Source: an uncultured bacterium
GTDB taxonomy: Bacteria; Cyanobacteriota; Vampirovibrionia; Gastranaerophilales; Gastranaerophilaceae
Length of the DNA: 33,106 nt
Assembly (NCBI GenBank): GCA_948433295.1
Contig: CAOJDT010000016.1
Location: 1 to 33,106 of the forward strand
Direction of reading: 5' to 3'
The notes below the pieces were generated by a model that saw only the letters and a list, made by a program, of their open reading frames with translations, made no database searches and was not told the DNA's origin. How positions within the stretch are numbered: position 1 is the stretch's first letter; every line of letters begins with the position of its first letter. This document shows, piece by piece, positions 9,112-32,046 of this stretch. The position numbers were made by a program, and so were the translations under genes.

Positions 9112-10836
9112 ATGAGTGAAGATTTTTTAAGCAAAATGATGTCGCAATTTGGCAGCGGAGGTTCTCAAGAGTATGTATATCTCTCAGTTACTCCGGGTGT
9201 CGGGTTGGAAATGTGTCAACTGGACATAACAAACAAATCAGTTAAGGCGTATGCCGTAAGAGAATTGGCTTATAATGAAACATCCAAGGATATAGCCGAT
9301 TACGAAGCTTTTAAAGAAGCCGTAACTGATATGTATACTGAATTACAGCTTAATCCTAAGTGTAATGTTGTCGTTAATATTCCGCTGGTATCTCTCGGAA
9401 CGATTAGTCTGCCGCTTATTCTTTCGGATGAAGCTATACAGACGAGTATTACATCGGAAGTTGAGCAAACCTATATTTTCAGACGCATGGAACCTGTTGT
9501 TGCTTGGCAGGATATCAATACCCCGGGACAAAGTTCCGAAAATAGAAAAGTTCTCTATTCGGCAGTTCAAGCTCCTGTTATTGATAATATAAGAAATGCT
9601 CTTGCCGATTTGGGTTCGACTCTTACGGGAATTGATGTTTCAGTGTCATCTTATCTGAGAGCACTTGATTTTACCGGGCTTACTGAAGCTCAAATGCAGG
9701 ACAATGTTACATGGAACCTCATGATAGTTAATTCAACGGGATACTCTCTTATTTCGTTGGTAGGTAAGACAGTTGTTGATTATTATGAAGAACCTCTCGC
9801 TATCAAAACTTTTGAAGGCGATGATATTTATAATGCAATCAATGCGTCTGCACAGATTACTCTTATGAGCTATCCTGCAAATTATCTTTATATAATTTCT
9901 GAAACGGATATGGTCAGTGCAGAACTTTTGGCGTCCAAGTTGCAAGGTGCCGGCAGTGTTGATTTCTTTGAAAACAACAGTTTTAAAAAGCATGAAATAA
10001 TGCCTGTAAGTTTGGATGTCTTACCTGATAACGTATTGAAAATATCTATGCAGATTGTCGGGGTTGCCGCTATTCAATATTCAAATTTCCCGCTGAAGTT
10101 TGAATTCATAAAAACAACTTCGACAGGCAGAGGCGGAGCTTCTGACGCACCGCTTCCGGTAAGAATCGGTGACCAGGTTTATGAAATAACACCGTCAGGT
10201 GCAAGAAATATTGCGATAATGGCGTTTGCAGTTGTCTTAATCCCTGTATTGCTAATTACATTCTTGCTTCTGCCAAACCTTGAAAAAAGTTCTCAACAAA
10301 AACTTGGTGAAGTGACTTCGAAAATTCAGGCTATTGATGAAGAAGTTTCCAAGCTTGATTCAGAAAATTCAAGTTCAACCGGTTTTAATATGAAAAGTGA
10401 AGTAGATATTGTTTTGAAAAACAATCGTGCTAAACTTTTAAGTTATACTGCAATCGGTGAAACCATTCCCGATACCGTATGGATTACTTATTTTATGACT
10501 CAAGGTGACGGATTGGTTGATATCAAAGGTGCAGCTACTAATGTTCAGGATGTTTATCAGTTCTTCAAAAATATGAAAGATTCATTGCTTTTCACAAAAT
10601 TGAGGCTTCAAAAATTGGAAATGCAAGCTGCGTCTCTTGACGATTTAGTATCTTCATCAGGTTCAAGTAATTACGAATTTGAAATTACTAATATGGACAG
10701 TAATCAATTAAGCGCATTCCTGAATGCAGGAAACGGTAAAAAAGAAGGCGAAGCTAATGCTGATAATCAGAATGCCGCAGGACAAAATCCAAACGGTCTG
10801 GTCAGCAATCAACCTTTGCCAAACGCAGGTAATTAA
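9112..10836 (+). CDS. PilM-PilN fusion (GspL-like) pilus or secretion platform protein
   Basis: Inner-membrane platform protein of a type IV pilus or type II secretion system. Of 574 residues, about 15-350 look like the actin-fold PilM/GspL cytoplasmic domain (repeated VYLSVTPG/VVVNIPL strand patterns, a GxDVSVSSYLRAL segment near 185). One membrane helix follows at about 366-387 (IMAFAVVLIPVLLITFLLL). A periplasmic coiled coil and PilN-type ferredoxin-like domain (about 388-530) come next, then a Gly/Asn-rich tail. PilM and PilN are separate genes in most type IV pilus operons, whereas GspL joins both, so this is either a fusion or a GspL homologue. pilO follows at 25 bp. Assignment rests on architecture more than on motifs. 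Confidence 0.72.
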   Translation: MSEDFLSKMMSQFGSGGSQEYVYLSVTPGVGLEMCQLDITNKSVKAYAVRELAYNETSKDIADYEAFKEAVTDMYTELQLNPKCNVVVNIPLVSLGTISLPLILSDEAIQTSITSEVEQTYIFRRMEPVVAWQDINTPGQSSENRKVLYSAVQAPVIDNIRNALADLGSTLTGIDVSVSSYLRALDFTGLTEAQMQDNVTWNLMIVNSTGYSLISLVGKTVVDYYEEPLAIKTFEGDDIYNAINASAQITLMSYPANYLYIISETDMVSAELLASKLQGAGSVDFFENNSFKKHEIMPVSLDVLPDNVLKISMQIVGVAAIQYSNFPLKFEFIKTTSTGRGGASDAPLPVRIGDQVYEITPSGARNIAIMAFAVVLIPVLLITFLLLPNLEKSSQQKLGEVTSKIQAIDEEVSKLDSENSSSTGFNMKSEVDIVLKNNRAKLLSYTAIGETIPDTVWITYFMTQGDGLVDIKGAATNVQDVYQFFKNMKDSLLFTKLRLQKLEMQAASLDDLVSSSGSSNYEFEITNMDSNQLSAFLNAGNGKKEGEANADNQNAAGQNPNGLVSNQPLPNAGN

Positions 10837-10861
10837 AATTATAAAAGGATAAAATTCTGAT

Positions 10862-11446
10862 ATGGATAAAGAAAAATTAATGTTATTTAAAGAATCGTTT
10901 ATGATTCTAGGCGTTATGGTTTTTGTCGTCTTTTATCTGCTTTTTACGAAAATGATTCCGTCAATACAAGCTGTTTCGGAATCTTCAAGCCAATATAAGA
11001 CACAATCTGCTACCCTCGGAGAAAAGGAACGTATTCTTGATACTAAAAAACAGGCTGCAATTCAAGCTGCCGATTCAAATATCGGTTCTTCCAAAGATAT
11101 GTACAAGCCAATGGAAAGCGGACTTGATGCAGAAAGTATTGTCGCAGGACAGTTTGATGATATTTTGCGTTTGCTTCAGGCAAATTCTATTAAAACCAGA
11201 TCCGTAAAATACGATTACAACTCTCCTGATGATACCTTTGTAAAAGGTGCTTCCAATATTTTGAGTGCTTGTACACTTTCCATGCAGATGGTTGCAACAT
11301 ACAAGAATTTTGAGAGTTTTCTCAAAGATTTGTATAAGCATGAACATTTCCTTGATATAGCTAAGATTGAAATTATTCCTTATTCGAAAAACAAAACCCT
11401 GTTACTGGTTAATTTCACTTTGAAGCTTTATGCGAAAAAAGTTTAA
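10862..11446 (+). CDS. pilO: PilO-like (GspM-like) pilus assembly protein
   Basis: A 194-residue bitopic inner-membrane protein that would pair with the PilN part of the upstream gene. One membrane helix lies at about 11-32 (FMILGVMVFVVFYLLFTKMI), then a coiled coil to about 65, then an alpha/beta domain (about 90-194) ending in the strand pattern LLLVNFTLKLYAKK. Length and layout match PilO/GspM. The start is ATG 10862 with AAAGGATAAAATTCTGAT just upstream. The outer-membrane partners PilP and PilQ are not in the window. Type II versus type IV pilus cannot be settled here. Confidence 0.7.
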   Translation: MDKEKLMLFKESFMILGVMVFVVFYLLFTKMIPSIQAVSESSSQYKTQSATLGEKERILDTKKQAAIQAADSNIGSSKDMYKPMESGLDAESIVAGQFDDILRLLQANSIKTRSVKYDYNSPDDTFVKGASNILSACTLSMQMVATYKNFESFLKDLYKHEHFLDIAKIEIIPYSKNKTLLLVNFTLKLYAKKV

Positions 11447-23138: not shown

Positions 23139-23861
23139 TTAAAATTTGAGTGGGTAATCTTTAGGAAATTTCCAGCCATTACGATATAATAAATGTGTAC
23201 ATTCTGCACCTTGCCAAACCCCACTAGTTATGCAATTTTTAATCAAAAAATCTGTTGATTGATTATCTACACTTTCGGGATTGCCAACTTTAATGCGATT
23301 TTTTATTCCTCTAAAATTACAAATTGAAAAGACAAAAATATCTTGTCCCATAATTGTTCGTCCTCGGGAACCATTTACATCTGCAAATATAATTAGACTT
23401 TTTCCGGGGGTTGGCCAATCTGAATAATATGATGTTGTTATTCCAAAAATTTTTCCATCAGGAAGCGCATATTTTGGCATATATTGACCAGTAGTTTCTA
23501 ATTCTCCATGCATCTTTGTTTCGGTTGGTTTGTACCAGGTTGTGAAAGCTCCATTTGGTACCATGCAGTAAGATGATGAGTTTTGTCCATATTTTCCACA
23601 TGGGTATAATTTCATATATGGAGCCATATATTTTTCTACAATAGCGTTTGCGTCAAGACTCCAATCCCAACTATCAAATGGACCAAAATCATTTTCAGCA
23701 ATTCTGAACCATTTTTCTAATTCTGAATAAGTTTTTTGTAATTCAATTTCAATTATATATTTTTCGTATTTCGAGGTTATTATAGATAGTGTCATTGCTG
23801 CAACTATACCTATAATTCCGAGGGTGATTAAAACTTCAGCGAGAGTAAAACCTTTTTTCAA
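23139..23861 (-). CDS. Type IV pilin-like protein (prepilin) 1
   Basis: A 240-residue prepilin: short basic leader MKKG, prepilin-peptidase site G|FTLAEV with the assembly glutamate at +5, then the hydrophobic helix LITLGIIGIVAAMTLSII. The globular part has four or more cysteines (LYPCGKY, SYCMVP, ICNFRG, NCITS) and ends in NGWKFPKDYPLKF, a motif shared with the two other pilins here. The start is TTG at 23861, chosen because GGAGG lies 5 nt upstream; the other in-frame TTG (23873) overlaps that site. It would be exported, cleaved and built into a pilus or pseudopilus by machinery such as PilMN-PilO. A strong promoter lies at 23895-23923. Confidence 0.88.
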   Translation of the reverse strand: MKKGFTLAEVLITLGIIGIVAAMTLSIITSKYEKYIIEIELQKTYSELEKWFRIAENDFGPFDSWDWSLDANAIVEKYMAPYMKLYPCGKYGQNSSSYCMVPNGAFTTWYKPTETKMHGELETTGQYMPKYALPDGKIFGITTSYYSDWPTPGKSLIIFADVNGSRGRTIMGQDIFVFSICNFRGIKNRIKVGNPESVDNQSTDFLIKNCITSGVWQGAECTHLLYRNGWKFPKDYPLKF

Positions 23862-23894
23862 AATAACCTCCAAAATATTGATAGTTCTATCTAT

Positions 23895-24319: not shown

Positions 24320-24346
24320 ATGAACCGTCATTCATAACTTTTTTTT
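24320..24346 (+). terminator. Weak terminator after the XRE gene
   Basis: Short stem ATGAA / TTCAT followed by AAC and eight T, overlapping the stop of the convergent prepilin gene. Confidence 0.4.
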
Positions 24347-25044
24347 ATTTAAGCCATGGATAGTCATCAGGAATTTTCCAGCCGTTTATTTGAATAAGTT
24401 TAGTACTGTTGTAAGGAGAATTGTACAGCCCTCTTTCCGTACAGTCCCAATCGTCTGTAATAAATGGCTCTAAACCTTTGTTTTTAAATATAGTTGTTTT
24501 GCAACCTGTAAAGTTTTGATCCATTTGAAAAGGAAAAACTGTTTTCCCTTTTACATCACTTTTTTCCTTGTCGGAAGCTGTAGGATAAAAATAATAATCC
24601 CAAGGATGTTTAATTCTTAGGCAAGAGCCGTCTGTAAAATATACAACAAATCCTTCATAGCCAAAATTATATTTTGTATATGATAAATATGGTTTAAGAT
24701 AAATTTCAAAAAAATAATTAAGGCACTCTTCTGATTCATGTTTTCCATTGGAACACTCCTCAGAGGCAACAATTTGACTATGCCAGTTAGATTTCTCTCC
24801 GTTATTTATTTCAGACAGGTTGATTGCTTGATTCATGGCAGAGTAAAATTTTTTTAATCTGGCTTCAATAGTGTTTTTCTTATAATTCATTACAAGCGTC
24901 GGTATAGTCATTGCCGCAACGATACCTATAATACCCAAAGTAATTAAAACTTCAGCCAGGGTGAAACCATTGATATAAGGAGACTTACGGCTAAAGAAGC
25001 CCCCCCCCTATTCTCTGAAATGTAGATGTAGTCTTTGTTTTCAT
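24345..25044 (-). CDS. Type IV pilin-like protein 2, out of frame at a G9 tract (phase-variable candidate)
   Basis: The gene starts at ATG 25044, with GGAG six bases upstream, and codes MKTKTTSTFQRIGGG up to nine consecutive G (25008-25000). With nine G the frame closes at once (GLL, TAG at 24993-24991). With eight G it continues as FFSRKSPYINGFTLAEV and on to the stop at 24345, giving a 232-residue prepilin: long leader, G|FTLAEV cleavage site, hydrophobic helix, cysteines, and the C-terminal motif INGWKIPDDYPWLK. Without the leader the longest frame has no start with a ribosome site (only an internal TTG in the hydrophobic helix). So the gene is off as sequenced, either by reversible slippage or by mutation. 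The globular half shows no other lesion. Confidence 0.8.
25000..25008 (-). repeat. Homopolymeric G9 tract in prepilin 2
   Basis: Nine G on the coding strand, codons 13 onward of the prepilin. Tract length decides whether the leader joins the pilin (8 or 11 G) or not (9 or 10 G). Such runs are rare by chance in this AT-rich sequence. Confidence 0.9.
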
Positions 25045-30840: not shown

Positions 30841-31716
30841 TTAATACCATACATTATACGGATAATCTTTCGGGATTTTCCATCCGTTTAGTTGTAAAAA
30901 TTTTGTACAATATGTTCGTTGTAATACAGAAGAATCAGGAGATTCCTTTTCTTTGTAACAAATCTTTTTTATATCGTCAGAATTTGGACAGCCAGATGAA
31001 AAAGGCTCAAATCCTTTATTATATATACATCCCCAATATGAAGAGTTGCTACGAGGTGCAAAATTAAAGGGGAATGAGCATACTCCATATGCCTCGGAGT
31101 AATCTCCCCATTGGTCAAAACATTTTTTAGAAGTATAAAAAAGCCAATCTCTTGTGCTACTAGAAAATGGTACAAGAATACTGCTATCTTGAAAATAAAC
31201 AATTAACATTTCTTTTCCTCTAACCGTTTGAATATCAGTCTTTACTATTTTTATATACGGTGCTAAATATTTATTAAACCATTCTTTTTGCTGTAATGCT
31301 CCGCTAATGTCTTCATACCATATTTTTTTGTCCCCATATTCAACTTCAGCCATTTTTACCGCCTGATTAATAGTTGAATAGAACTTTTGTAATCGAGTTT
31401 CCACAACGTGATTTTTATAATTTTGTATAAGCGTCGGCAAAGTCATTGCCGCGACAATTCCGATTATGCCTAAGGTGATTAAAACTTCTGCAAGAGTAAA
31501 GGCAATTTTCCTCTTCCCTCTACCCTTACTCGTGCCTCCCTGCATTTTAGTGTCAGGGTGATGTGCCGTCTTACTCACTCGCATGTAACGGCATTTCGGT
31601 TTTCCTACGCCGCCGCCTTCGCGTCGCCGTATCAAACCTTCAGCCTCAGCTCGTTCGCGCTCAGGCACGCGATTGCGGGTCAAGCCCGCAATGACGTTAG
31701 CTATTCCTTTTTTCAT
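30841..31716 (-). CDS. Type IV pilin-like protein 3 with an insertion in its leader
   Basis: A 291-residue prepilin with start ATG 31716 and GGAGG 4 nt upstream. The first four codons (MKKG) and the cleavage region KIA|FTLAEVLITLG are separated by 66 extra codons (31507-31704) of palindromic-repeat DNA, so the leader is about 70 residues, not 6-10. Ala replaces Gly at -1, which prepilin peptidases often accept. The mature part has the hydrophobic helix GIIGIVAAMTLPTL, cysteines (KCFDQ, GVCSFPF, WGCIYN, SGCPNS, KICYKE, RTYCTK) and the family C-terminus LNGWKIPKDYPYNVWY. A frame upstream reaches it through a G9 tract (31955-31963). Whether the long leader still works is unknown. Confidence 0.82.
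   Translation of the reverse strand: MKKGIANVIAGLTRNRVPERERAEAEGLIRRREGGGVGKPKCRYMRVSKTAHHPDTKMQGGTSKGRGKRKIAFTLAEVLITLGIIGIVAAMTLPTLIQNYKNHVVETRLQKFYSTINQAVKMAEVEYGDKKIWYEDISGALQQKEWFNKYLAPYIKIVKTDIQTVRGKEMLIVYFQDSSILVPFSSSTRDWLFYTSKKCFDQWGDYSEAYGVCSFPFNFAPRSNSSYWGCIYNKGFEPFSSGCPNSDDIKKICYKEKESPDSSVLQRTYCTKFLQLNGWKIPKDYPYNVWY
31507..31704 (-). repeat. 198-bp palindromic-repeat insertion in the prepilin 3 leader
   Basis: GC-rich against its surroundings, in frame (66 codons), with hairpins ATTGCGGGC/GACCCGCAAT-type and TGCCGT...ACGGCA, and the core shared with 25695-25713. Removing it restores a normal short leader, MKKG followed by IAFTLAEV. Confidence 0.75.
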
Positions 31717-31871
31717 ACATCCTCCGTTTTCTATACTATTTTTTATTATAACTCTTTTCAACACCGATGTCACCGTGTCATTAGGCACAGTGCAGGTTGC
31801 AGTGTGTTTTATTTTTGTTTTATCGTTATTGTGGGTCAATCCCCAAAAGACATTAGTCTTCAAAAACGCTT

Positions 31872-31997
31872 TCAAATTTTTAGTGTGTTTTGTAAATTTC
31901 GTGTAAAGTGGTTTGTCAAAAACCGCTCCAGAGTAGTGATTCGACTCAGTCGAGCCCCCCCCCGTTTTAAGTTTGAAGTTATAATTGACGTTTTCAT
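31872..31997 (-). CDS. 41-codon leader frame containing a G9 tract
   Basis: ATG 31997 has GAGG eight bases upstream and a TATAAT box at 32021-32016. It codes MKTSIITSNLKRGGA and closes at TGA 31874-31872. With ten (or seven) G in the tract it would instead run in frame through 31871-31717 into prepilin 3, since that whole stretch is open. It parallels prepilin 2, which also begins MKT and meets its G-run at codon 13. Whether it is translated is not known. Confidence 0.5.
   Translation of the reverse strand: MKTSIITSNLKRGGARLSRITTLERFLTNHFTRNLQNTLKI
31955..31963 (-). repeat. Homopolymeric G9 tract upstream of prepilin 3
   Basis: Nine G on the minus strand at codons 12-15 of the leader frame. 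Ten or seven G fuse the leader to the prepilin frame; eight or nine do not. Confidence 0.9.
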
Positions 31998-32046
31998 CCT
32001 ATTTTCCTCTTTTTTATTATACATTATTTTATGTTAAAATACAAGC

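Follow-up and report, generated by a model that had tools for sequence, protein, structure and literature searches.

Guanine tracts in the leaders of type IV prepilin-like genes of Candidatus Gastranaerophilales: a candidate phase-variation system

Introduction

The minus strand of a 33,106-nt stretch of DNA (hereafter the window) carries a run of nine guanines early in a short leader reading frame, upstream of a gene for a type IV prepilin-like protein, and in its present register the leader frame ends before the prepilin begins. The question raised by this locus is whether the length of the run decides if, or from where, the prepilin is translated. The genome holding the window (G000; 1.96 Mb, 131 contigs) belongs to Candidatus Gastranaerophilales, and the host is a gut bacterium from the non-photosynthetic sister group of cyanobacteria. 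Most work on phase variation concerns pathogens whose switch genes are unrelated and number in the tens; a search of one literature library for phase variation in the present bacterial group found no paper.

The reading favored here, and considered probable, is homopolymer phase variation of a very large type IV prepilin-like family in Candidatus Gastranaerophilales, with the window tract as one member. The architecture of the loci, their frames, the link to prepilins, and the length differences between near-identical copies are read directly from the assembled sequences.

The leader and tract of the window locus

The features of the locus, and of two further prepilin genes in the window, are as follows.

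32016..32021, minus strand: putative leader promoter, a -10-like TATAAT with a weak -35
32005..32009, minus strand: leader Shine-Dalgarno sequence GAGGA, 7 nt ahead of the ATG
31872..31997, minus strand: leader ORF in the present register, from the ATG at 31997 to the TGA at 31874-31872, with the tract inside and the stop 80 nt past it
31955..31963, minus strand: G9 tract, 12 codons into the leader; by frame analysis, 10 or 7 G lead into the prepilin frame
31941..31953, minus strand: palindrome TCGACT-G-AGTCGA immediately 3′ of the tract; one of the off frames reads a TGA here
31717..31954, minus strand: linking region, open in the prepilin frame, a mosaic of repeat modules common to other loci of the genome
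31745..31773, minus strand: internal sigma-70-like promoter GTGACA-17-TATAAT, 11 of 12 consensus bases
31714..31725, minus strand: the prepilin's own Shine-Dalgarno sequence GGAGG (31725-31721) and ATG (31716)
30841..31716, minus strand: prepilin, 291 aa, with profile matches to N_methyl (PF07963) and DUF6613 (PF20318)
25000..25008, minus strand: sister G9 tract, with leader ATG at 25044 and Shine-Dalgarno sequence AAGGAG at 25056-25051; in frame at 8 G
24345..24980, minus strand: prepilin under the sister tract, without a start codon between the tract and FTLAEV
23139..23873, minus strand: third prepilin, without a tract

The leader on the minus strand is MKTSIITSNLKR. The offset from the leader ATG to the prepilin frame is 2, so that 10 or 7 G would bring both into one frame. 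From the tract through 31717 into the prepilin, the prepilin frame is open, and the mechanical frame of 385 aa contains no stop. An earlier note on this DNA had proposed that the nine G lie in a leader with a Shine-Dalgarno sequence and ATG and that the prepilin frame is reached at ten or seven G; sequence and frames confirm both points, and the end of the leader ORF that it gave, 31872, agrees exactly with the TGA of the present register. The window has four G8 matches, against a mean of 0.07 in dinucleotide shuffles. Palindromes similar to that at 31941-31953 follow the tract in other long-leader paralogues.

The window contains two G9 tracts, and the recurrence of one design 7 kb apart, also claimed in that note, is confirmed with one refinement: both tracts lie in leaders with a Shine-Dalgarno sequence and ATG, but their registers differ, the sister tract having one G too many (8 G would be in frame) and the tract at 31963-31955 one too few (10 G would be in frame). 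Because no start codon lies between the sister tract and its prepilin, that tract must decide translation there. Elsewhere in the window, positions 9112-11446 hold pilus assembly genes, namely a PilN domain with a PilM-like N-terminus and then a PilO-sized ORF, and the genome encodes four T2SSE (type II/IV secretion) ATPases above cut-off.

A family of tract-led prepilins in the genome

The cassette—a Shine-Dalgarno sequence, an ATG, 6–16 codons, G9–13, an early stop, and, in a different frame, a prepilin—is found throughout the genome. The genome contains 101 ends of G9+ tracts and 141 prepilin N-terminal matches. Among the 100 G9+ tracts listed, 61 are followed within 500 nt by a prepilin on the same strand, and nearly all of the remainder are either too near a contig end to show what follows or end artefacts. 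Counted from the prepilins, a tract is visible at 61 of the 141, the frame leaves the contig within 500 nt at 39, and 41 are without a tract. At loci throughout the genome, the tract (G9–13) starts 19–49 nt past the leader start codon, placing the repeat early in the 5′ part of the reading frame. In many members, the tract lies 13–40 nt before the pilin with no intervening start codon; there, it must switch pilin translation itself and not just the length of a leader. In 828 kb of the genome, the length distribution of G runs away from contig ends peaks at 11, and A and T runs fall off smoothly with length. Overall, this genome has dozens, and probably about a hundred, pilin genes with a leader tract of this kind.

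Three listed tracts with more than 1 kb of contig downstream are found before a glycosyltransferase-2-like ORF (PF00535, E 1.5e-4, slightly below cut-off), before a 222-aa ORF, and inside a long ORF. The same leader and G-tract cassette, out of frame in both cases, was seen at C5:49136-49147 (L069, ~9136) and at C107 ~1063-1072 (L306), with the 222-aa ORF, which has no Pfam match, and the glycosyltransferase-2-like ORF. At contig ends (e.g., C8:39983-40034, C86:1-53, and C90:6841-6889), C runs on the left and G runs on the right, up to 53 nt long, lie beside inward-facing prepilins. These long runs were not counted as real, given this artefact pattern of C on left and G on right ends. They seem to contribute to the break-up of the genome into 131 contigs, and the observation suggests that poly-G tracts contribute to assembly fragmentation of these genomes.

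Distribution among relatives

Close protein relatives come from metagenome genomes of Candidatus Gastranaerophilales and Candidatus Scatousia. A survey pattern of G8 joined to a prepilin motif within about 65 nt was present in 48 of the family's 191 genomes and in 14 of its 41 genera; the reversed pattern, used as a control, had 0 matches. The figure of 48/191 is a minimum, since the pattern overlooks longer leaders; G010, for instance, scores zero by the survey pattern yet has tracts 173–174 nt upstream of prepilins. Outside the family, one genome only in a class-wide sample had the pattern. Very large prepilin families were also noted in ~2-Mb genomes of the genus, with first-look candidates mostly numbering 57–203 (13 and 5 in two genomes, and 141 in G000).

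Registers and early stops

Frames were analyzed at 209 tract-prepilin loci from 25 survey genomes and three named records, 203 of which were scored for register from tract lengths that are assembly values and can be wrong. At 207 of the 209 loci, no stop interrupts the prepilin frame between tract and prepilin, so that a length change of one unit joins or breaks the frame. All three registers occur: 27 of the 203 loci are in frame, 121 have one G too many, and 55 one G too few. The in-frame share is below one third (binomial p ~1e-10, shared ancestry ignored).

The out-of-frame register is non-random. In G000, 46 of 51 loci keep one +1 offset (one G too many) at tract lengths of 9, 10, 11, or 12, and among distinct leaders 25 of 30 do so, against 14.3 expected with permuted lengths (p < 1e-4). 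The usual register in G022, G119, and G155 is one G too few. In G042, in-frame is the commonest state (7/15), and the loci are mostly in frame or one slip off; near-fixation of the out-of-frame register is seen in G000 but in neither G042 nor G178. In the usual off register, translation would meet a stop no more than 12 nt past the tract at 101/120 off-1 and 39/55 off-2 loci, compared with 40/120 and 27/55 in the other off register. The shared +1 offset and the early stop leave room for programmed slippage or frame-coupled translation.

Changes in tract length and the proposed switch

Differences between near-identical copies indicate that tract lengths do change. Two paralogue pairs have identical flanks but unequal tracts: the G078 pair differs by one G, which puts one copy in frame and the other out, and the G048 pair by two; a G119 pair, apparently identical over the aligned match, has 10 versus 11 G, and a one-G difference is frequent among pairs at 5–15% divergence. 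Loss of MutS as the source of instability was ruled out, MutS being encoded in G000 and in most relatives checked.

In the proposed phase variation, translation would begin at the leader Shine-Dalgarno sequence and ATG, and replication slippage would add or remove a G in the G9–13 tract. One register, the usual one, would lead to a stop a few codons past the tract (OFF), and another would run into the prepilin (ON), with a minority of loci on and most off. If slippage is frequent in growing cells, as we infer, and loci in the ON state make pili, each cell would display few of its pilins at once, and cells would probably display different pili at random. Free slippage, however, does not predict one kept +1 offset; the co-variation of tract length and flanks in G000, which maintains that offset, counts against the phase-variation reading, as do the low share of in-frame loci, the presence of MutS, and, at the window locus, the pilin's own start.

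Complementarity of the post-tract sequence to the leader Shine-Dalgarno sequence

In several genera, the sequence past the early stop complements the leader Shine-Dalgarno sequence beyond its core: GGAGCU/AGCUCC in g7 and g13, GGAGAU/GUCUCC in g22, and GGAGAG/CUCUCC at some G000 loci. Watson-Crick pairing holds for 46 of 95 pairs at the second position following GGA, compared with 20–22% after swapping (maximum of 500 swaps, 34%). The duplex energy of own pairs is −8.18 kcal/mol, versus −7.16 kcal/mol for swaps with other genera, an effect limited to some genera, and the TCC most often starts 5 nt past the start of the stop codon. At tract loci of g7, g8, g13, and g22 (e.g., L266 and L178-L183), some of the differences between genera in this post-tract complement are compensatory. 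A universal hairpin was rejected, since the complement stands out in g13, g22, G178, and some of g7 and g8, but is weak in G000 and absent in G123, G138, G038, G184, and G004. The minimum-free-energy fold of one leader contains a predicted stem between the Shine-Dalgarno sequence and its complement, although its energy is no better than that of shuffles (z −0.21).

As a hypothesis only, the pairing suggests that off-register translation ends just before the anti-Shine-Dalgarno sequence. The off-register stop would abut the complement, as in AAGGAGCU with AGCUCCUU, AAGGAGAU with GUCUCCUU, and UAAGGAGCUG with UAGCUCCUUA. OFF-register ribosomes would then halt just ahead of the complement, letting it close over the Shine-Dalgarno sequence, and ON-register ribosomes would melt it. 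Such a frame-sensing translational latch on many pilin genes, perhaps with built-in slippage and with the usual off register under selection, appears unlikely.

The window prepilin and its own start

The N-terminus of the window prepilin is type IV prepilin-like, with a small residue, F, E at +5, and a hydrophobic helix, and PF07963 matches above cut-off. Cleavage is predicted at A72^F73, before FTLAEVLITLGIIGIVAAMTLP (F codon at 31500-31498). A structure prediction gave a long N-terminal helix and strands (mean pLDDT 57.5), with C. difficile PilA1 as the best-ranked fold at a non-significant E of 0.74; no fold was assigned from so poor a model.

The earlier note was right that this pilin also has a start of its own: the ATG at 31716 is preceded by GGAGG at 31725-31721 and by the 11/12 sigma-70-like promoter at 31773-31745. 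The module of promoter, GGAGG, and ATG recurs at other places in the genome. It could yield a 291-aa precursor at any tract length, and the precursor expected at 10 or 7 G is ~385 aa long, so that the switch would either add to the own start or be bypassed by it. Both precursors should give an identical mature pilin after cleavage by prepilin peptidase. Since this enzyme is expected to cut off all residues ahead of F73, insertions in that part would probably carry little cost.

Palindromic repeats similar to Rickettsia RPE or REP units lie in frame within the removable leaders of prepilins (NVIAGLTRNR, HHPDTKMQGGTSKGR, HPELDSGS), both at 31717-31500 of the window and upstream of other prepilins. 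The linking region of the window carries the RPE/REP-like repeats GTCATTGCGGGCTTGACCCGCAATC and CACCCTGACACTAAAATGCAGGG, and of the 16 copies found, 15 are no more than 480 nt upstream of a prepilin, although prepilin upstream regions were over-represented in the DNA sampled.

An alignment of relatives, run in part, speaks against conservation of the frame through 31871-31717 as protein, which had been named as a check. Neither the N-terminal extension nor the linking frame is conserved: elsewhere in the genus, intact matches to the window pilin cover it only from residue 56–70 of the own-start protein onward, and stops interrupt the linking frame at three loci (G010 and G349) where an own-start pilin follows a tract. 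A search of the genus for a close orthologue found none above 58% identity. Since these loci bear the own-start module and have lost the connecting frame, the switch at the window locus may be bypassed. Closed frames in relatives, together with the unconserved extension, would make the window copy a gene with two starts or else a switch that is being lost. Control by a tract in the leader, as put forward in the earlier note, is strongly supported family-wide (61 loci, 48/191 genomes, and slippage differences between paralogues), but the window copy may be bypassed or decaying, and control of leader length or translational coupling is possible there.

Alternative explanations

The main rival for the whole family is programmed slippage, in which slips of RNA polymerase or of the ribosome on the G run occur with a defined frequency, and a fixed off register gives low, steady pilin synthesis from unchanged DNA. 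It would account for one off register prevailing in several lineages across differing tract lengths and leaders, and for the kept register being the one with a stop within 12 nt (101/120 off-1 loci, versus 40/120 in the other off frame). Prepilin ORFs are also intact even though nearly all are formally off, but contingency genes would keep intact ORFs as well. The direct in-frame state that is commonest in G042, the variation of near-identical copies in length and register, and the change between genera in the direction of the required shift all weigh against programmed slippage, which we regard as quite improbable. An assembly artefact, by which tracts are systematically miscounted and most genes are truly in frame, finds some precedent in the artefactual G/C runs of up to 53 at contig ends next to prepilins and in the annotated G11 of Bifidobacterium breve, which is a minority allele in culture (PMC9187656). 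The miscount would, however, need to change sign between genera, from +1 to −1, and always toward the early-stop register; a favored register that varies by genus yet always carries an early stop makes a general miscount unlikely, and the prepilin association and open frames are independent of exact length. Such an artefact is given very little credence.

A further alternative concerns the window locus only, namely that its switch is vestigial: the tract would no longer matter, with the intact 5′ region (promoter, Shine-Dalgarno sequence, and ATG) of a tract-less pilin, together with dispersed palindromes, lying between tract and prepilin. The recurrence of the promoter, Shine-Dalgarno, and ATG module in the genome, the closed linking frames downstream of the tract at own-start loci of G010 and G349, and the position of the window copy as the sole one of 51 scored G000 loci at offset 2 are in line with this. 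On the other hand, the 439-nt linking frame of the window is still open, and other module-bearing copies in the genome are in frame or at the usual +1 offset. A vestigial switch at this one locus is a serious contender, though given somewhat less than an even chance. For the family, phase variation by tract length remains the preferred reading.

Significance and comparison with known systems

If this reading is true, an uncultured gut lineage would carry one kind of switch on tens to ~100 copies of one pilus-subunit family, most of them in one off register. We know of few contingency systems on a single family that would be as large, and the system could explain surface variation of these bacteria in the gut. 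Of mechanisms that have been tested, the nearest is that of the sortase-dependent pilus clusters bbr_0113/bbr_1889 of B. breve, in which replication slippage at an intragenic G10/G11 switches pili; the reference allele is out of frame and regains its ORF by a one-base change, slippage occurs within the population, and the in-frame length is enriched in mice (PMC9187656). Common to both systems are a gut commensal as host and a G tract near the beginning of a pilus gene. The present genes, unlike the one or two sortase-pilus loci per genome of B. breve, are type IV prepilin-like, number tens of loci per genome, and belong to another phylum.

Poly-G loci of Campylobacter, as catalogued with PhasomeIt, mostly have 9–10 G inside ORFs with frame-based on/off switching; C. 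jejuni has 18–39 phase-variable genes of mixed families, and 81 repeats were counted in one doylei isolate (PMC6321876). Poly-G within ORFs and on/off control by frame are thus shared, whereas the ~100 tracts described here belong nearly all to one protein family, have a mode of 11 G, and show a conserved off register. In the simple-sequence-repeat phasome of Neisseria meningitidis, 115 genes varied within single colonies; it resembles the present system in its many simple-repeat switches and differs in its mixed repeat types and functions and in that most of its switches are not of the on/off frame type (PMC5084427). These Campylobacter and Neisseria phasomes are closest in kind. Many copies of one surface-protein family under repeat-based control are known from vlhA of Mycoplasma gallisepticum and opa of Neisseria, sets that differ from the poly-G prepilins in repeat unit, position, and proteins. 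What differs from known systems is the scale on one family, the kept off register with its early stop, and the host.
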